Source: Sphingobacteriales bacterium (GTDB lineage Bacteria > Bacteroidota > Bacteroidia > Chitinophagales > Chitinophagaceae). From it: a stretch of DNA of 59,085 nt. Made by a program: the position numbers and the translations under genes. This document shows, in pieces, positions 2,182-56,840 of this stretch. The notes under the pieces are model-generated. The model was not told the origin of the DNA. It did not search any database and was given only the letters and a program-made list of their open reading frames with translations. Each line of letters begins with the position of its first letter. Position 1 is the stretch's first letter. The stretch is from positions 1 through 59,085 of the forward strand of contig REAR01000061.1 in NCBI GenBank assembly GCA_004295245.1, written 5' to 3'.

Positions 2182-3007
2182 ATTTTTCGTAATAAAGATG
2201 ATTTATAACAAACACCCCCACCACCCCGCTTCCACCCTTTTTGTTACGGTGTTTTAACGGTAGGCAAGTCATGCGCCGGCAGGCAGCATTTGCTATTAAC
2301 CAGTAGCCTTAAATTATTTTTGATGTGTACTTTTTTGAGGGGGAAACAGGATTACCATGGCCTTATTTAAAGTTCTACTATTTATGGCAACCCGCAAAAC
2401 GCTTTGCTAAAACGTACTATTATTTAAAAATGGTGCTGCGGCTATTAGCATTACTGCACCACTGTTAAAGCGGGATGCCACTAAAATGTTTATTTGTATT
2501 GTGTGGTACAAGTGTGCGACGCAACCACTGCTGCATAGCATTACTACTGCTGATTACCCACTAAAAAAATGTAAAAACCGCCACCAGCAAGGGTTGTAAA
2601 CTATCAATCAAACCACCCAATTTTTATGGTAATTTTGTTTTGCACGGGCTTTGTGGATTACGGCCTAAGGCTGGTGCTAAAAATTATAAAATTGTGGAAA
2701 GAAGGCAGAATGACTGGGGATAAGCCATTATTGTGCGTGAATAAGCTGTTGATGACACCTTGATAAATATTAGCTGAAAAAACTGATTTTTAATTGCCGC
2801 GGCGGGTTTATATTCGTCGCCTGACCCACGGGATAATATTCAGTTCACAGTTCGGTAACAATCACGCAACATAAGGCTGAGCAATACCCCCCGCAGTCAT
2901 TGGTTGGAAAAATATCCAAATCACTGGCATGGCAGTATATGGCCATCCCTGCCTAAGAAAAACCACAACAAACCAATGCTATTAACCCTTTTGAGTGTTT
3001 GCTAACA
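2182..3007. other. Long intergenic region without a gene
   Basis: Over 800 bp between divergent genes. It holds one right-arm copy of the dispersed TTGCGWCGCA repeat at 2512-2525, with a flank resembling the usual outer end (CTGCTGATTACCC, ~2548-2560). Short GC-rich patches occur (2265-2290, 2800-2840). I see no ORF with coding character, no tRNA and no clear structured RNA. Its second half presumably holds the dnaB promoter, which I could not place. Confidence 0.5.
2512..2560 (-). repeat. Dispersed TTGCGWCGCA repeat, solo right arm
   Basis: GTGTGCGACGCAAC at 2512-2525, preceded by ACAA and followed within 35 bp by CTGCTGATTACCC, which resembles the right outer end of the family. No clear left arm is seen upstream, so this is a solo or decayed element. 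Confidence 0.6.
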
Positions 3008-4646: not shown

Positions 4647-4694
4647 TGTAACCAGCCCTAATAATTCTGTTCAGCAGTGGTTGCGTCGCACACT
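4647..4694 (+). repeat. Dispersed repeat, solo left arm
   Basis: TTTTTTGTAACCAGC marks the left outer end (about 4643-4657) and TTGCGTCGCACACT the inner core (4681-4694), with TTCAGCAGTGG between them. No opposing right arm follows before the histidine kinase gene. Confidence 0.7.
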
Positions 4695-7314: not shown

Positions 7315-7360
7315 TGCATTGTGTTCTATTGCTGAAGTGTGCGACGCAACAATGTTGATT
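7315..7360 (-). repeat. Dispersed repeat arm inside the atpD-atpC operon
   Basis: GTGTGCGACGCAAC at 7337-7350, preceded by TTGCTGAA and followed by AATGTTG. Only the right-arm type is present. It sits between the atpD stop and the atpC start and should be transcribed with them. Confidence 0.65.
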
Positions 7361-10071: not shown

Positions 10072-10260
10072 AACCAGCCAAAGCAAAAAGCCCGGCCCCG
10101 GTTGCGTCGCACACTTATACCTTGGTGCACCGCTCAGCCATGCAGCCCATTTTAAGTTGGTAAAAACCGTATTTTGCGTTAGGCTTGTATTTAACCTGCA
10201 CAACTGCTGCAGGGTGCGACGCAACAAAGGCCCGGCTTTATAAAACAGTTGGTACCAAAA
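10072..10260. repeat. Dispersed repeat, paired element
   Basis: The left arm has the outer end AAACCAGCC (10071-10079) and core GTTGCGTCGCACACTT (10101-10116). The right arm has core GGGTGCGACGCAAC (10212-10225) and outer end CAGTTGGTACCAAAA (10246-10260). CCCGGCC before the left core mirrors GGCCCGGC after the right core, so the whole unit is an extended inverted repeat. It fills the divergent region before the haem-binding protein gene. Confidence 0.75.
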
Positions 10261-13740: not shown

Positions 13741-13855
13741 CCAACAGTAATTTTTCATAGCAGTCCCGAAACTTCGGGATTGCGTCGCACACTTGTACTG
13801 AAGTTGAAGGGTGCGACGCAACAATGCTTAATAGCAATACAAAAGCCGGTTACCC
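13741..13855. repeat. Dispersed repeat, compact paired element
   Basis: Left arm: CCAACAGTAA, then TTTCATAGCAG, the palindrome TCCCGAAACTTCGGGA (13764-13779) and core TTGCGTCGCACACTT (13780-13794). Right arm: core GGGTGCGACGCAAC (13809-13822) and outer end CCGGTTACCCC (~13845). The cores are only 14 bp apart and can form one hairpin. The 42 nt at 13753-13794 are identical to 42393-42434. Confidence 0.8.
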
Positions 13856-17334: not shown

Positions 17335-17390
17335 CATTGCAGCTGAAGTGTGCGACGCAACGATGTTGAAAAACGGCTTGCGGCTGATTA
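17335..17390 (-). repeat. Dispersed repeat, solo right arm
   Basis: GTGTGCGACGCAAC (17348-17361), preceded by GCTGAA and followed by GATGTTG and CGGCTGATTACC (~17379-17390), the right outer end. The outer end abuts the stop of the following convergent gene. Confidence 0.7.
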
Positions 17391-25735: not shown

Positions 25736-25800
25736 TTTGTAGCCAGCTGTGGTGCTACGGCTCATCATCCTTGCGTCGCACCCTTCAACAGCAGTGCATG
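25736..25800 (+). repeat. Dispersed repeat, solo left arm
   Basis: The left outer end TTTTGTAGCCAGC (25736-25748) is followed by core TTGCGTCGCACCCTT (25771-25785) and CAACAGCAGTG. It is located between the pheT stop and the coiled-coil gene. Confidence 0.7.
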
Positions 25801-30119: not shown

Positions 30120-30188
30120 CTTTATTGTGCAGCACCAGTGTGCGACGCAACACATGCCGGGCTTAGTACAACTGTTAGTACCAAAAAA
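30120..30188 (-). repeat. Dispersed repeat, solo right arm
   Basis: Core GTGTGCGACGCAAC (30138-30151), then GCCGGGCTTAG and the outer end AACTGTTAGTACCAAAAAA (~30170-30188). It lies downstream of the rplS terminator and upstream of tatA. Confidence 0.7.
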
Positions 30189-37129: not shown

Positions 37130-37255
37130 AAGTCTGTCTTATCTGTCGTTTACTTTTGCAAACGTATGGAATTGGCACCTTTTTCTGGTGTTACCAGAAT
37201 AGGTTGTCAAGGCTTCTGCGGGCCATATCCCTCTGCCTTTCTTGATAAGTGTAAG
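37130..37255 (-). promoter_or_regulatory. SAM-I riboswitch (S-box) controlling cysH-cysD-cysN-cobA
   Basis: On the minus strand the aptamer begins with CTTATC (37249-37244) AAGAAAGGCAGAGGGATATGGCCC, continues GCAGAAGCCTTGACAACC, and ends with AAGGTGCCAATTCC and GATAAG (37143-37138). The S-box core is visible: the pairing P1 CTTATC/GATAAG, the AGAGGGA and GGCCC blocks, the GACAACC kink-turn region, and GGTGCCAATTCC. SAM binding stabilises P1 and should leave the downstream terminator free to form, so high SAM turns the operon off. Confidence 0.9.
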
Positions 37256-37342: not shown

Positions 37343-37491
37343 GTTACCAGCTGCAGCAACCAGGGCAGCATCGTTGCGTCGCACCAGTTAACTATAAACC
37401 ACTGATTATACAGTAATAGGAAAAATGGTTGCGGCCAGCACTGCCGTTGAAGTGAGTGACACAACGATGCTGCTTGAAAATATACAGTTGG
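37343..37491. repeat. Dispersed repeat, paired element with decayed right arm
   Basis: Left arm: outer end GTTACCAGC (37343-37351), GGGCAGCATC, and core GTTGCGTCGCAC (37373-37384). Right arm: CCGTTGAA then the altered core GTGAGTGACACAAC (37452-37465), GATGCTGCTTG and the outer end ACAGTTGG. GCAGCATCGTTG and its mirror CAACGATGCTGC are still complementary. Confidence 0.65.
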
Positions 37492-42376: not shown

Positions 42377-42530
42377 GTAACCAGCAGTTGAGTTTCATAG
42401 CAGTCCCGAAACTTCGGGATTGCGTCGCACACTTTTACAGCACAACCGTAAAAAGCCCAATACCCGCACTACCGATGAACGTATTGCGACGCAACGATGT
42501 TTAACCGGAGCCTTACTGCCGGGCACAAAA
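42377..42530. repeat. Dispersed repeat, paired element
   Basis: Left arm: outer end GTAACCAGC (42377-42385), TTTCATAGCAG, palindrome TCCCGAAACTTCGGGA (42404-42419), core TTGCGTCGCACACTT (42420-42434). Right arm: core TTGCGACGCAAC (42484-42495) and AACCGGAGCC. 42 nt of the left arm are identical to 13753-13794. It separates two convergent terminators. Confidence 0.8.
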
Positions 42531-44051: not shown

Positions 44052-44236
44052 GGGTAGTTAGCAGCAAAGCCCTGCTCAACAGCCGTTGCGTCGCACACTT
44101 CAACAATGGTAAATGGTACAGGGCATACAATTTAAAGCCTTACACACTATTCCTTTCATTTAATACCTATTCTTCCGTTGCAGTGTGCGACGCAATCCCG
44201 AAGTTTCAGGACCCCAACGGAATTAACACAGCTAGC
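44052..44236. repeat. Dispersed repeat, paired element with central core
   Basis: Left arm: CAACAGCC and core GTTGCGTCGCACACTT (44085-44100), then CAAC. Right arm: TTCTTCCGTTGCA, core GTGTGCGACGCAA (44183-44195) and the altered palindrome TCCCGAAGTTTCAGGA (44196-44211), then the outer end CTAGCTGCC. The central ~60 bp align without gaps to the core of the element at 48887. Confidence 0.75.
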
Positions 44237-44239
44237 TGC

Positions 44240-46171
44240 CTAATTATTTGTTTTAGTAACCATGCCCTGCAGGTTAATAGCTATTTTATTTTCTGCCTGC
44301 AAAAAACTTAGCAGTTGCCAGGCCGTAGATTTATTAAGCCCTTTTAAAGCTAGCAATAGATTGGCTGTAGTTTGCGGTTGTTGTAACAGCTGCATTATTT
44401 TTTCAGTATATGCTGTAAAATGCGCTGGGCTTAGCGGCAGGTTTTTTTTCTGTTGTAAACAATTATCGCAAACGCCGCAGGCAGGCACTTTGTCGTCTCC
44501 AAAATAACTGCCTATTAACTGGCTGCGGCATTCATTGGCATTGGTTACATAATTTATAAACTGTTGCACCCGCTGTGTGTATTGCTGGCGGCGCTCTTCG
44601 TATGCTTTATTATTTATGGTAAGGTATTCTGCTTTTATACGCTCTTGCAATAAAAATAATTGCGGTGTATCTTTTTGTGGCGTGTAACGCACCATACCAT
44701 ACACTTGCAGTTGTTGCAGTTGTTGTTTCACAGCTTCAGTTTCCATCTTCAGCCAATAGGCCAAAGATTTTTCATTGATGGCCGTTTCCTGATCGTAAAT
44801 ACCTTCGTACGTACGCAATAGCATTTTAACCACAGGCTCTAAAGTAGGGTAGTCGTTTTCAAACTGGTACAACGCTTCTTTACTACATATAAACTGTAGT
44901 TTTGCCGGAATAAATACCTGCTCATTAAAACCCAAATAAGTTTCTTGCTCTAATACTTTTAATGCGGGCAATAATTCCTGCACATGCAGTTGAAATTTTT
45001 TAGCGCAATCGCCCATATCAAAATTATAATAGGCATTTTCAAAAGTACCGGTGGGCAGTTGCAAATAGTTTACTACCGACTGGTACACCTGCCGCAGGTA
45101 TTGCAGATTTGGGAATTTAATATTCACCTGTTGCAGCAACTCTTGTGTTTCGCCCTGATGGTATAATAAAACAGCGTACGCTTTATTACCATCTCTTCCG
45201 GCCCGGCCAGCTTCCTGGTAATAGTTTTCTAAGCAATCGGGCAGATTATAATGTACTACCGTTCTAACATCGGGTTTATCAATACCCATTCCAAAAGCGT
45301 TGGTGCAAACCATAATACGCACCTGGTTTTTTATCCATGCTGTTTGCTTATCATTTCTTTCATCTGAGCTTAAACCGGCATGATAATAATCTGCACTTAT
45401 AGCATAGGTTTGTAATTGTGCTGCTACTTCTTTAGTAAGTCTTCTTGTTTTACAATATACAATGCCGCTGCCACTTACATTGTTCAATACTTCCACCAGC
45501 TTGTTTATTTTAGAATCAACCGCAAATACACTGTAAGAAAGGTTGGGCCGGGCAAAAGACTGCTGGTAGCTGGCTTCATTTTTAAAAAGAAGTTTCTCTT
45601 TAATATCTTTTTGCACAGTTGTTGTAGCCGATGCTGTTAAAGCAATTACCGGCACACGGGGCAGTTCATCTCTTAAATCGGCAATGCGCAAATACGGCGG
45701 ACGAAAATCGTAACCCCACTGAGAAATACAATGCGCTTCATCTACTGCCAGTAAACTAATTTCTAAAGCAGGCAGGTATTCTTTAAACAAGGCAGTTTCT
45801 AACCGCTCTGGTGATACATATAAAAACTTGCAATTGCTGTGAATAGCCAGTTGCATAGTTTGCAACACTTCTTTTCGGCTCATGCCACTATAAATAGCAA
45901 ATGCGGTAATGCCTTTTTTGCGCAGATTTTCTACCTGATCTTTCATTAAAGCAATCAGCGGCGAAACCACTAAACATAAACCCGGCAACAACATACCCGG
46001 CACCTGATAACAAATAGATTTACCACCACCGGTTGGTAGAAGTGCCAATACGTCTTTTCCATTCAATACACTTTCAATAATTTCCTGCTGCAAGGGCCTA
46101 AAAGATGCATAGCCCCAATAATTGCGGAGTATGTCTGTGGCCGTGGTTGGTGCAGAAAAATTTGTACTCAT
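44240..46171 (-). CDS. recQ: ATP-dependent DNA helicase RecQ
   Basis: A superfamily 2 3'-5' helicase in recombination and repair. The 643 residues start with FRPLQQEIIESVL (Q-motif region). Walker A is LLPTGGGKSICYQVP (~42-54), the DEAH box is LLAVDEAHCISQWGYDFRP (~144), motif VI is YQEAGRAGRDG, and the RecQ zinc cysteines lie in NECRSQLI and ACGVCDNC (~540). A C-terminal winged-helix-like tail follows; no clear HRDC domain is visible. It starts 14 bp after copA and should be cotranscribed with it. Confidence 0.95.
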   Translation of the reverse strand: MSTNFSAPTTATDILRNYWGYASFRPLQQEIIESVLNGKDVLALLPTGGGKSICYQVPGMLLPGLCLVVSPLIALMKDQVENLRKKGITAFAIYSGMSRKEVLQTMQLAIHSNCKFLYVSPERLETALFKEYLPALEISLLAVDEAHCISQWGYDFRPPYLRIADLRDELPRVPVIALTASATTTVQKDIKEKLLFKNEASYQQSFARPNLSYSVFAVDSKINKLVEVLNNVSGSGIVYCKTRRLTKEVAAQLQTYAISADYYHAGLSSDERNDKQTAWIKNQVRIMVCTNAFGMGIDKPDVRTVVHYNLPDCLENYYQEAGRAGRDGNKAYAVLLYHQGETQELLQQVNIKFPNLQYLRQVYQSVVNYLQLPTGTFENAYYNFDMGDCAKKFQLHVQELLPALKVLEQETYLGFNEQVFIPAKLQFICSKEALYQFENDYPTLEPVVKMLLRTYEGIYDQETAINEKSLAYWLKMETEAVKQQLQQLQVYGMVRYTPQKDTPQLFLLQERIKAEYLTINNKAYEERRQQYTQRVQQFINYVTNANECRSQLIGSYFGDDKVPACGVCDNCLQQKKNLPLSPAHFTAYTEKIMQLLQQPQTTANLLLALKGLNKSTAWQLLSFLQAENKIAINLQGMVTKTNN

Positions 46172-46185
46172 TAACCGGAAAAATA

Positions 46186-48333
46186 TTAATCTACTTTTTT
46201 TACAAACAAACGTACTGAATTTATTGCCAGCACCACATCGCTCAACCCCATTACTAACGCACCAAAAGTGGGTGTTAAAAAACCAAAAGCGGCAACCGGT
46301 ATGGCTACAATATTATAGGCAAAGGCCCAGAATAAATTTTGTTTAATAGTTTTTAAAGTATGTTTTCCGAGGCCCAATGCTAAAGGCAATTTTTTTAGGC
46401 CATGGTTCATTAGTACCACATCTGCGGTTTGTAAGACTATTTGCGATGCATCTCCCATGGATATACCAATGGTGGCTTTTGCCAGAGCCGGGGCATCATT
46501 AATACCATCACCTACCATGGCAGTTGGCACAGCAGCACTTAAGGTTGTAATTTTTTCCAGTTTCTGCTGGGGTGTTTGTTCGGCTATTATTTCATCAACC
46601 CCTAATGTAGCTGCCAGCTGCTGGCATTTAGCCAGTCGGTCGCCACTTAGCAAAATGGTCTTAATACCTTTTGCTTTAAAATAACTAACTACGGAAGCAG
46701 CTTCTTCTCTTATCTCATCGGCCACATCTATCCACCCTACTAACACATCATCTTTTATAATGTAAACATTATGGTTTTCTTCTGTAGTTAAATAACTGGC
46801 TCCTTTAAAAGAAACCGCTTTGTAAATATTGCCTTCTTTTGTGGTGGCCTGCATGCCTAGCCCTTTTACCTCTTCTATTTTTTGCCAACGCAACATGTCT
46901 GTTGTTTTCCAATTGTTAGCAATACACAATGCAATGGGATGGTTAGAATATTTTTCTAATGAAAAAGCTGTTTTTTTAAAAGTTTGCTCATCAATAACTG
47001 CCGCATTAAAATAATAACCTGCAATAGTAAACTGCCCCGTTGTTAAAGTGCCTGTCTTATCAAACACTACCTGTTGTATTGTTTTAAAAGCTTCCAAACT
47101 TTTTGCATCTCTGAACAAAACCCCATTTTTTGCAGCACGCCCCAAACCCACTGCAATGGCAGCCGGTGTGGCTAAACCCATAGCACAGGGGCATGCAATT
47201 ACCAATACCGCAATGCTGCGCATCAGTGCTTTAGTAAAATCGTCTAACACAAAATAGCTAACCCCAAAAGTTACCAGTGCTATAATTATAACTGCCGGCA
47301 CAAATATGGCACTGATTTTATCAGCCATTTCCTGCACGGGTGGCTTATCCCCCTGTGCTTTTTTTACAAGGTCAATAATATTTGCCAGCACAGAATCTTT
47401 AGCTGCTGCAGTTACCTGTGCTTTCACCATGCCATCTGCAATTAAACTACCTCCAATTAATGTGTCTTTTGCATGTTTGGTAACCGGTAAACTCTCTCCG
47501 GTAATAATAGCTTCATTTACGCTGGCATCGCCCCATAAAATTTTACAATCAGCAGGCACTTGTTCGCCACTTTTAATTAAAATCAAATCTCCGTTTCTTA
47601 AATCTGTATTAGCTACCGGAAATATTTGCTCTTTATGTTCGTCATCAAAGGCTATCATATTAGCCATTACTTGCTGGCTTTTAGCCAATTTTTGCAAAGC
47701 TCTTTGTGTGGAGGCGATAGAAACATCTTCTAAATAATTACCTAAAAATACCAGCGTAATAATAGTGGCTGCCGTTTCAAAAAAAAGATACTCGTGACTC
47801 CCTAAAAAAATAGTACCAACAACACTATATACAAATGCAGCAGTTGCACCTAATGCTACCAGCACATTCATGTTAGGCACCCCTTTCGTAATACTCTTCC
47901 AGGCACTTTTACCAAAATAACTCATTCCTATTATGTACACAGGTGCACATAACCCCAATTGCACCCAAGGGTTCATTAGCCAATGAATATGCACCCACTT
48001 ATCCAGCATGTGCAACATTAGCACCAGTGTAAATGGCAAACATATAAGCAGGTAGCGCAGGTATTTATTCATGGCAGGTTTAGCGCTGGCAGCACCGGCA
48101 TTTTCATTTGTTACCACGGTATATCCTAAATCAGCAATGCCATTTATTAAAGTATCATCTGCTATTTCAATATTATTTTTATCAAATAAAACATCTCCAT
48201 TAGCATAATTCACCTTTACGCTTTCCATGCCCTGCTTTTTTAAATAATTGGTAATAGAAAGTGCGCAGGTGGCACAATCCATACCCGCTACTTTCCAGTT
48301 GGTAGTGGCCTCATTTTTTTCTTGCGTATTCAT
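46186..48333 (-). CDS. copA: Copper-translocating P-type ATPase
   Basis: Exports Cu(I) from the cytoplasm. The 715 residues carry one N-terminal heavy-metal domain with GMDCATCALSI (CxxC, ~15-20), eight expected membrane helices, the membrane Cu site CPCAMGLATP (~380), the phosphorylation site VFDKTGTLTTGQF (~423), the HP motif YSNHPIALCI, and the hinge MVGDGINDAPALAKA (~608). CPC plus HP identifies a P1B-type (Cu-specific) pump. The promoter box TAACTTTG ends 4 nt before the ATG, so the mRNA may be leaderless. recQ follows closely; tsaE is divergent. Confidence 0.95.
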   Translation of the reverse strand: MNTQEKNEATTNWKVAGMDCATCALSITNYLKKQGMESVKVNYANGDVLFDKNNIEIADDTLINGIADLGYTVVTNENAGAASAKPAMNKYLRYLLICLPFTLVLMLHMLDKWVHIHWLMNPWVQLGLCAPVYIIGMSYFGKSAWKSITKGVPNMNVLVALGATAAFVYSVVGTIFLGSHEYLFFETAATIITLVFLGNYLEDVSIASTQRALQKLAKSQQVMANMIAFDDEHKEQIFPVANTDLRNGDLILIKSGEQVPADCKILWGDASVNEAIITGESLPVTKHAKDTLIGGSLIADGMVKAQVTAAAKDSVLANIIDLVKKAQGDKPPVQEMADKISAIFVPAVIIIALVTFGVSYFVLDDFTKALMRSIAVLVIACPCAMGLATPAAIAVGLGRAAKNGVLFRDAKSLEAFKTIQQVVFDKTGTLTTGQFTIAGYYFNAAVIDEQTFKKTAFSLEKYSNHPIALCIANNWKTTDMLRWQKIEEVKGLGMQATTKEGNIYKAVSFKGASYLTTEENHNVYIIKDDVLVGWIDVADEIREEAASVVSYFKAKGIKTILLSGDRLAKCQQLAATLGVDEIIAEQTPQQKLEKITTLSAAVPTAMVGDGINDAPALAKATIGISMGDASQIVLQTADVVLMNHGLKKLPLALGLGKHTLKTIKQNLFWAFAYNIVAIPVAAFGFLTPTFGALVMGLSDVVLAINSVRLFVKKVD

Positions 48334-48337
48334 ACCA

Positions 48338-48345
48338 CAAAGTTA
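48338..48345 (-). promoter_or_regulatory. Promoter -7 box of copA
   Basis: TAACTTTG on the minus strand, then TGGT and the ATG. No clear -33 element and no obvious metal-regulator operator were seen. Confidence 0.55.
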
Positions 48346-48397
48346 GGCATTGCTGTGGGTGCCTTTTTACGCAGTTGGTAATAATATCAACACCGTG

Positions 48398-48429
48398 TTG
48401 CAATTTTACAGGCGGGGCCAGTACCTTTG
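48398..48429 (+). promoter_or_regulatory. Promoter of tsaE
   Basis: -7 TACCTTTG (48422-48429), with TTG at 48398-48400 as a possible -33 element (spacing 21). The ATG starts 8 nt after the box. Confidence 0.5.
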
Positions 48430-48437
48430 CAACATTC

Positions 48438-48851
48438 ATGCAGTATACTTACACTTTACAAGAAATTAATACGGCCGCGGCCGCGTTTTGGCAACAATAC
48501 AAACAATACCGGGTGTTTGCCCTGCACGGACAAATGGGCGCCGGCAAAACCACTTTTGTACATGCTTTGTGCCAGCACCTTAATATCAGCAGCGCCGTTA
48601 GCAGCCCTACTTTTTCCATTATTAATGAATATGAAGGCAACAACCTGGTTGTTTATCATATTGACCTGTACCGCTTGCAAAACGAAGAAGAAGCAATAAG
48701 AGCAGGTATTGAAGATTGCCTCTACAGCCAACATATTTGCCTGATAGAATGGCCAGAGCGCATCCCCCTTCTTTTTGCGGAAGACACCTTGCACCTATAC
48801 ATTGAAAGCCTGAATAATACCACCCGTACCCTGCGGGTAGGTAATAAATAA
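48438..48851 (+). CDS. tsaE: tRNA t6A synthesis ATPase TsaE
   Basis: 137 residues from ATG 48438 (MQYTYTLQEINTAAAAFWQQ). P-loop ALHGQMGAGKTTFVHALCQH (~32-40), then SSPTFSIINEYEG, HIDLYRL and the C-terminal LIEWPERIPLL are the TsaE signature. TsaE works with TsaB and TsaD to place threonylcarbamoyl on A37 of ANN-decoding tRNAs. A longer upstream frame exists but runs over the promoter. A repeat separates it from ald. Confidence 0.95.
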   Translation: MQYTYTLQEINTAAAAFWQQYKQYRVFALHGQMGAGKTTFVHALCQHLNISSAVSSPTFSIINEYEGNNLVVYHIDLYRLQNEEEAIRAGIEDCLYSQHICLIEWPERIPLLFAEDTLHLYIESLNNTTRTLRVGNK

Positions 48852-48886
48852 GTATATTTGAAAACGGCTTCTATTAAATAAAAATA

Positions 48887-49053
48887 GGAGCCCGGCAATG
48901 GTACTGCTATAGAGCAGTTGTTGCGTCGCACACTTCAACTGTGGCAAAAGGTATGGGCCCTGAGTTTATTGGCTTATACAGTATTCTTTGGTTGAAGGGT
49001 GCGACGCAACGATTTAGCACAGCGAACCGCTGCTGGTTACCCTAACAAAAAAA
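48887..49053. repeat. Dispersed repeat, paired element with central core
   Basis: Left arm: GAGCAGTT and core GTTGCGTCGCACACTT (48920-48935), CAAC. Right arm: GGTTGAA, core GGGTGCGACGCAAC (48997-49010), GATTTAGCACAGCG and the outer end CTGCTGGTTACCCTAAC (~49030-49046), then AAAAAAA. The inner ends GTTGCGTCGCAC.CTTCAAC and GTTGAAG.GTGCGACGCAAC are near-perfect inverted repeats. Confidence 0.8.
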
Positions 49054-53106: not shown

Positions 53107-53293
53107 GTTTTTCATAGCAGCAGCCGTTGCGTCGCACACTTGTACAGTTAGTCAGTAAGCTGGCAGAACCGAAAGTCAGAAAGATGCTTGTAAATAATAA
53201 AAGATTCTTTAGGACTTGCCGCCTGGTATTCTTCCGTACAAGTGTGCGACGCAAGGATGCCCAACCGGAGTTACAAATGCTGGTTACAAAAAA
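53107..53293. repeat. Dispersed repeat, paired element
   Basis: Left arm: TTCATAGCAGCAGCC and core GTTGCGTCGCACACTT (53126-53141). Right arm: TATTCTTCCGTACAA, core GTGTGCGACGCAA (53242-53254), AACCGGAGTTACAAATG and the outer end CTGGTTACAAAAAAA (53280-53294). The right end abuts the mfd stop codon. Confidence 0.75.
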
Positions 53294-56773: not shown

Positions 56774-56840
56774 TGGTAACCGGCTGTTGTATAGCTATTG
56801 GGCAGTAGTTGCGTCGCACTCTTCAACAGCAACGCCTTGT
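56774..56840 (+). repeat. Dispersed repeat, solo left arm
   Basis: Left outer end GGTAACCGGCTG (~56775-56786), GGGCAGTA and core GTTGCGTCGCACTCTT (56808-56823), then CAACAGCAACG. It lies between the porin-like gene's stop and the mfd promoter. Confidence 0.7.

Follow-up and report, generated by a model that had tools for sequence, protein, structure and literature searches.

A near-perfect dyad core in single and paired intergenic modules of Chitinophagaceae genomes: candidate binding sites for a postulated protein

The 59,085-nucleotide stretch analysed here (the window; contig REAR01000061.1 of the Sphingobacteriales bacterium assembly GCA_004295245.1, family Chitinophagaceae) carries pairs of inverted arms in the gaps between its genes, which a preliminary description regarded as copies of one element with two ends. 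Comparison with further copies suggests instead that each arm belongs to an extragenic module, that the pairs are face-to-face composites of such modules, and that they are kept as binding sites for a protein that we postulate. Judging from sequence, we tentatively favour this reading, at slightly less than an even chance. The pairs look more like hundreds of preserved docking sites than like copies of one fixed element.

Three inverted arm pairs were confirmed in the window. The first has its left arm at 44086-44104 (+; core TTGCGTCGCAC plus ACTTCAAC) and its right arm at 44177-44195 (-), with a middle at 44105-44176. The second has arms at 48921-48939 (+) and 48991-49009 (-) around a middle at 48940-48990, and the third has arms at 53127-53145 (+) and 53236-53254 (-). 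All three left arms are TTGCGTCGCACACTT, and the right arms end in GTGCGACGCAA. The module is asymmetric and about 75-80 bp long; its parts are, in order, a T-run, GNNCCNGGC some 30 nt ahead of the core, the dyad core, and AGC some 34 nt past the start of the core. The core of 11 nt is dyad-symmetric, TTGCG-T-CGCA(C/A), and is followed by CTT(G/C)(T/A)(A/G)C. Alignment of 87 solitary copies gave the consensus TTTTTTTTGTAACCAGC...CAGCATCG-TTGCGTCGCACACTTCAAC...CAGCAAT. Both modules of the second pair carry the outer block of this consensus, GAGCCCGGC at 48888-48896 (+) on the left and, on the right, GCTGGTTAC at 49032-49040 (-), the reverse complement of GTAACCAGC. Two other genomes, G141 and G070, follow the same plan in other letters (T-run, GNNCCCGGC, AGCTTT, core, CTTGTAC, and AGCA some 34 nt beyond the start of the core). 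The core exists in three variants, v1 TTGCGTCGCACWCTTGTAC, v2 TTGTGTCACTCACTTGTAC and v3 TTGCGTCGCAA(T/G)C...TTCATC, and in G141 v1 arms frequently stand opposite v2 arms (19 cases).

The module occurs singly as well as in pairs. We sampled 459 kb of the source genome and 200 kb each of G141 and G070. A facing partner lay within 250 nt of 66 of 148, 10 of 71 and 20 of 77 arms, respectively, leaving 82, 61 and 57 without one. When diverged variants were also accepted as partners (up to three mismatches per variant), 66 of 133, 39 of 67 and 55 of 75 v1 arms were still alone. These source-genome counts, like those for strict open reading frames (ORFs) and for identity below, keep one arm duplicated in overlapping stretches (L105/L106) and may hold one extra.

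The source genome sample has 79 distinct facing pairs. With five pairs excluded whose middles are shorter than 25 nt, the other 74 middles fall into clusters of 27, 9, 2 and 2, plus 34 singletons. The 27-member cluster is AT-rich (ATTTGAGATTTGATATTTCTGATTTGAAATTTC) and may partly reflect a common AT-rich texture with a 7-nt period. The 9-member cluster (GGTAAAAGGTATGGGGC) includes the middle of the 44086 pair, which has 8 relatives among the 74; the middle of the 53127 pair clusters with one other element, and that of the 48921 pair is a singleton at the threshold used. The 7-nt periodicity in the source genome reaches z 24 overall, 18 and 7.9 in the 27- and 9-member clusters and 6.8 in the rest, and elsewhere 7.7 in G141, 7.8 in named metagenome-assembled genomes (MAGs) and 0.7 in G070, all z values being inflated by related sequences. 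An origin of the arms from 7-nt arrays was considered and rejected: such arrays occur away from arms, and the middles of G070 lack the period. Degenerate 7-nt-periodic arrays were seen in gaps of the source genome (L108:15041, L114:17156, L112:643) and of G141 (L174:18744, L180:209), and only one of these five arrays lies inward of an arm.

The preliminary description had matched 44096-44160 to 48931-48995 without gaps and taken the pairs for copies of one two-ended element. Its paired inverted arms stand; its ungapped shared middle of about 60 bp is weak. That alignment has 30 of 65 identical positions, nine of them within the arm, and beyond the 19-nt arms the match is 21 of 56 (38%; shuffle p = 0.03), a level that 27% of all same-register middle comparisons in the source genome reach. 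A gapped BLAST match of the two elements including the arm is stronger (76% over about 70 nt, E 1.1e-6), and the sequence said to recur before the right cores, TATTCTTCCGT, is found exactly at 44168 and 53227, at most two bases from where it had been placed. A single two-ended mobile element with a defined middle, of which the other copies would be decayed forms, would account for the clustered middles (40 of 74, including the groups of 9 and 27) and for ten further BLAST matches of the 44086 element that cover both arms. It does not account for all pairs. Unrelated middles across the genome, which the preliminary description had named as evidence against itself, were found for about half of the pairs; solitary modules have a weakly conserved inner end of their own; and other genomes use other middles. 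The arms also vary independently: the variable arm letters (positions 15-17) are equal within 14 of 74 pairs, with 14.7 expected under independence, positions 15-16 alone are equal in 36 of 74 (29.9 expected, p 0.06), and identity over the outer 34 nt is 0.33 within pairs and 0.35 between pairs. This independence argues against one element with a fixed middle, a view that we consider improbable, and against selection for pairing between arms. As in the bacterial interspersed mosaic elements (BIMEs), orientation alternates, several classes of middle occur among the 79 pairs, and arm variants mix. Together, the unclustered middles, the independent arms and the solitary arms indicate that the unit is the module of about 75-80 bp and that pairs are face-to-face composites, like the BIMEs of repetitive extragenic palindromic (REP) sequences.

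The module is abundant. In the source genome (3.37 Mb), TTGCGTCGCACNCTT occurs exactly 385+381 times and with one mismatch 455+452 times, against 0+0 and 0+1 for a reversed-pattern control, and two arms separated by 40-70 nt gave 40+37 matches (control 0+0). Among 294 genomes drawn across the family, 152 carry the core, in 1 to 2,100 copies. High-copy genomes include G207 (1044+1056), G141 (815+758), G149 (777+782), G070 (779+759), G063 (599+613) and G058 (488+396), and genomes in one contig span 0 (G018), 153 (G004) and 1,573 (G141) copies. In the source genus, the 766 copies of the source genome compare with 2 and 0 in two congeners, both drafts of 85% completeness; 94.7 kb of overlapping congener loci held no v1, v2 or v3 arm at up to three mismatches. 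A phylum-wide draw found the core in 13 of 392 genomes, namely nine of the 15 family members drawn and four outsiders with one match each. The 26 named stretches with a full pair belong to Chitinophagaceae MAGs, one MAG named only Bacteroidota, and Limnovirga soli, of which the cultured strain KCS-6 appears to be rich in copies. The core is also present in 29 stretches of IMG/VR contigs filed as viral, some of which may be prophages or misfiled chromosome.

Conservation is concentrated in the core. Within three genomes, pairwise identity between copies is 0.98-0.99 in the core, 0.71-0.83 at +12..+19, 0.44-0.60 in the T-run, 0.39-0.48 in the outer block, 0.43-0.49 at -9..0, 0.34-0.36 at +19..+33, 0.30-0.34 at -24..-9 and 0.27-0.28 in flanking DNA, for copies chosen by a core match with up to two mismatches. 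Half-decayed cores are rare: a 15-mer matched the source genome 72, 46, 11, 18 and 73 times at 0, 1, 2, 3 and 4 mismatches, against shuffled-motif means of 0, 0, 0.5, 7.7 and 64. The corresponding counts in G141 were 22, 37, 5, 48 and 31, where the 48 three-mismatch matches are probably variant v2. At core positions 3 and 7, 230 copies have C-G, 45 have T-A and 3 are mixed, a pairing that would fit a dyad site or a mini-stem; the T-A state may be a single ancient event. In ten genomes with only 3 to 26 copies, one locus each was inspected by eye, and the core and much of the module looked intact.

The copies lie between genes. With strict ORF calls (ATG starts, at least 100 aa, 30-nt margin), arms more than 30 nt inside an ORF numbered 1 of 148 in the source genome, 1 of 71 in G141 and 0 of 77 in G070 (2 of 296 in total), in DNA that is 83-86% coding. 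Per length of gap DNA, arms are densest in convergent gaps (36 in 6.9 kb) and sparsest in divergent ones (13 in 10.3 kb), with 76 in 28.9 kb of tandem gaps, in line with the preference of REPs for convergent and unidirectional gaps reported in Di Nocera 2013 (PMC3733652). For modules whose outer side is turned towards the 3' end of a gene, the distance from the stop codon to the core start is 36-44 nt in 31 of 85 (source genome), 16 of 43 (G141) and 15 of 37 (G070) cases. At two loci, L194 and L195 (G141 and G058), the module's TTTTGAGCC apparently provides the TGA stop of the neighbouring gene; the C-terminus of this gene differs from its relatives, and the core is 31 nt from the stop.

Copies tend to recur at orthologous sites in other genera. 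The comparison spanned g58, g63 and g70 and excluded gaps under 80 nt, less than 250 nt of sequence and protein identity below 50%. For 3' gene sides, 36 had a copy in both genomes, 9 in the query only, 5 in the subject only and 7 in neither (p 0.014); for 5' gene sides the numbers were 17, 9, 6 and 13 (p 0.026). Orientation was the same in 22 orthologous copies and different in 8, and the 3' end of one gene has a same-orientation copy in all six genomes compared, from three genera. Empty sites gave no insertion boundaries, gene matches being mostly 65-82% identical and three G141/G058 gaps not usefully alignable. The 48921 pair lies in a gap of 224 nt; the corresponding gap in the congener G122, where gene order is kept, is about 29 nt long (counted by hand), so that this pair was either gained here or lost there.

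These results may be understood as follows. The core would be read as double-stranded DNA by a postulated, sequence-specific and probably dimeric protein, and copies would be retained because binding has a role where transcription units end, such as insulation or the organisation of the nucleoid or of supercoiling. The family presumably spread at first by mobilisation or copying, as copy numbers of 0 to 2,100 within the family and 0 to 766 within the source genus suggest. Two modules facing each other in one gap would then make a pair, the middle being a spacer that often consists of a 7-nt-periodic array with many inverted repeats. We prefer constrained binding sites since a single master copy that had burst recently would have left more uniform surroundings, and the core would have decayed in neutral relics.

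Several points weigh against this reading. The contrast between core and flanks is partly built in, the core having been the selection criterion, though few mismatches turned up. When ORFs were called more loosely (90 aa, with GTG and TTG also accepted as starts), 18 of 144 source-genome arms fell inside them, one of 145 having been removed as the L105/L106 duplicate. Of these 18, 12 lie no more than 45 nt from the nearer ORF edge and six lie 60 to 142 nt from it. In the three genomes, the copies showed no consistent rule of orientation towards genes. The rows of the orthology comparison are not independent, since one gap enters from each of its neighbours and in more than one genome, and gap length confounds it. 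In region L171, G070 and G141 copies are opposite in all six rows scored for orientation (4 gaps); orientation can thus flip, and core type switches between v1 and v2 at orthologous sites. Orthologous copies share the family consensus and little else (identity 0.89 in the core, 0.85 in the next 8 letters and 0.30-0.48 in other blocks, for 31 pairs to which 35 candidate matches, selected by core, were reduced), so that repeated insertion at favoured sites is an alternative source of the shared positions. The core-binding protein itself is a postulate.

REP-like repeats are usually seen as palindromic, and the GTAG kind as transposase-linked. Here an abundant family has neither palindrome nor transposase sign, yet its core is near-perfect, its surroundings drift and it tends to sit in the same gaps in different genera. 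This makes the choice between a selfish and a functional repeat testable, with a short defined core and one-contig genomes that hold 0, 153 and 1,573 copies; if the copies are binding sites, the predicted binding protein should occur only where they occur. In a more specific form, the copies would mark genomes in a lineage-specific way: several hundred to two thousand dyad sites, between genes and often just behind them, would be kept by selection or drive for a putative sequence-specific protein present in only some species of the family. We regard such marking as possible, at well under an even chance.

The most serious rival holds that the copies are selfish elements of the REP or miniature inverted-repeat transposable element (MITE) kind, moved by a transposase acting in trans and forming BIME-like dimers, with core conservation reflecting the needs of the enzyme and continuous turnover. 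The span of copy numbers across the 294 family genomes and within the source genus, the congener loci free of arms, the short G122 gap, the REP-like ranking of gap types and the switching of core types at orthologous sites all favour it. No mobiliser was found. The only PF01797 (Y1_Tnp) gene of the source genome, which is IS200-like, lies between facing arms (L029, G000:C141), of which the second is truncated by the contig end. An exact core lies near just one of the 13 loci that hold relatives of this gene at 45-64% identity, and near 2 of 16 more distant ones. The PF01797 profile had no match in G141 (one contig, 100% complete, 1,573 copies), nor in six further genomes with at least 50 copies, namely G024 (257), G072, G222, G272, G052 and G288; every other examined genome with at least 50 copies has one or more matches. 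A Y1 transposase or REP-associated tyrosine transposase (RAYT) was accordingly rejected as the mobiliser, its relatives mostly lacking a flanking core and seven high-copy genomes lacking PF01797. In 51 stretches between facing arms, which cover parts of genomes, the Y1 gene was the only recognised transposase, the proteins being assessed by eye on the first 70 residues of each, with no family search. Among 198 solitary copies or 48 pairs, no direct repeat at a fixed offset rose above scanning noise as a target-site duplication, a test that length variation limits. DNA adjacent to the core is near random between copies, unlike the product of a recent burst from one master. On balance we think a selfish family unlikely.

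Among known repeats, the family is closest to the REPs, in our assessment of its sequence, and appears to fall outside the GTAG and CGTC REP families. Like REPs and BIMEs, it is high in copy number and mostly extragenic, occurs as single units and as opposed dimers including heterodimers, differs between related species and prefers convergent and tandem gaps; like CGTC REPs, it has no known dedicated transposase. As described in PMC3733652, GTAG and CGTC REPs are defined as palindromic stem-loops that carry a terminal unpaired tag, GTAG or CGTC, and the CGTC families have stems of 8-9 bp and are without a known dedicated transposase. The Chitinophagaceae unit, by contrast, is a longer asymmetric module whose 11-nt dyad core happens to contain CGTC and whose conserved fold is at most 3 bp, with no tagged stem-loop. 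With RAYT-associated REPs, as described in Nunvar 2010 (PMC2817692), it shares the extragenic position and, in the source genome, a Y1 gene between facing arms; it differs in that Y1 relatives mostly lack a flanking repeat and that G141, with 1,573 copies, lacks Y1_Tnp. We therefore set it apart from the REP super-families on two grounds, the stem-loop definition that it fails and the RAYT association that it lacks. In the literature searched, which left most subscription journals outside, we found no REP family of Chitinophagaceae and, judging by titles and the beginnings of abstracts, no such repeat with TGCGTCGCAC.

MITEs such as Correia or ERIC are intergenic and have inverted ends and a variable internal length. 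The Chitinophagaceae repeat resembles them in all three respects and differs in its common solitary ends, in middles of which about half are unclustered and, as far as length variation allowed a test, in showing no target duplication. Heptanucleotide repeats of other bacteria (TAACTGA repeats, PMC4679880; also PMC4692102) have an intergenic 7-nt unit as do many of the middles, whereas the arrays in these middles are degenerate, contain many inverted repeats and often lie between arms.

Pairs acting as RNA hairpins at gene ends, either terminators or stabilisers of mRNA, would explain two observations: whole pairs fold far better than shuffles (-0.41 versus -0.20 kcal/mol per nt), 42% of the middles folding better than shuffles by themselves (z under -2), and arms are enriched in convergent gaps. 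The arms of a pair, however, do not co-vary at their variable letters, and the v1 arms that face v2 arms in G141 leave mismatches by eye. Many copies are solitary, and tandem gaps show no consistent strand preference. Behind 3' ends, 31 of 85 source-genome copies sit 68-130 nt from the stop, several of them visibly after a terminator-like stem and T-run (seen, not counted). RNAalifold, applied to the 87 solitary copies and to 148, 70 and 77 copies of the three genomes, gave no conserved fold beyond the 3-bp mini-stem of the core, TGC-GTC-GCA, and an RNA structure of the module was rejected on this ground. RNA hairpins thus seem a poor explanation of the pairs.

DNA uptake sequences (DUS) and uptake signal sequences (USS) of Neisseria and Haemophilus, whose core is kept by biased uptake and recombination, offer a parallel in a near-perfect short core that recurs hundreds to thousands of times, variable surroundings, variants (here v1, v2 and v3), paired copies and patchiness among relatives, but DUS/USS are common in coding DNA while only 2 of 296 copies are inside ORFs and the module, with its outer and inner blocks, is longer than its core, so that we find this explanation very improbable.

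The window holds further copies. A left arm at 42420-42438 (+) faces a right arm of variant 3 at 42474-42494 (-; TTGCGTCGCAATACGTTCATC on the minus strand). Other pairs are at 10102-10224 (cores 10102 + and 10212 -), at 13780-13821, where the cores (13780 + and 13809 -) are very close, and at 37374-37464, where both cores are diverged (37374 + with 2 mismatches, 37452 - with 3). Solitary module cores are at 2512-2524 (-), 4681-4693 (+), 7337-7349 (-), 17348-17360 (-), 25771-25783 (+), 30138-30150 (-) and 56809-56821 (+). The neighbours of the window pairs are ordinary genes: a fumarase-like lyase, a RecQ-like helicase, TsaE, an alanine dehydrogenase/PNT, an ABC-transport auxiliary protein and a TRCF-like helicase.

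Directly outside some cores stands a stem-loop of the form TCCCGAAACTTCGGGA, exact or nearly so: at 13764-13779, at 42404-42419 just before the 42420 arm, at 44196-44211 immediately outside the right arm of the first pair (there TCCCGAAGTTTCAGGA), and from 58334. It looks like a second small repeat added beside the core. At 37136-37251 (-) the window also contains an S-adenosylmethionine (SAM) riboswitch (Rfam RF00162, 70.6 bits). In G141 another repeat, CTTGACTTTTTTTGTTACTTTTTTGTGTCAAGACAAAAAAGTAAATAACA, was seen at L171:4408-4457; stretches of 48-51 nt that are 98-100% identical to it occur at about ten places in G149, a genome of a different genus in which matched genes are about 67-84% identical.

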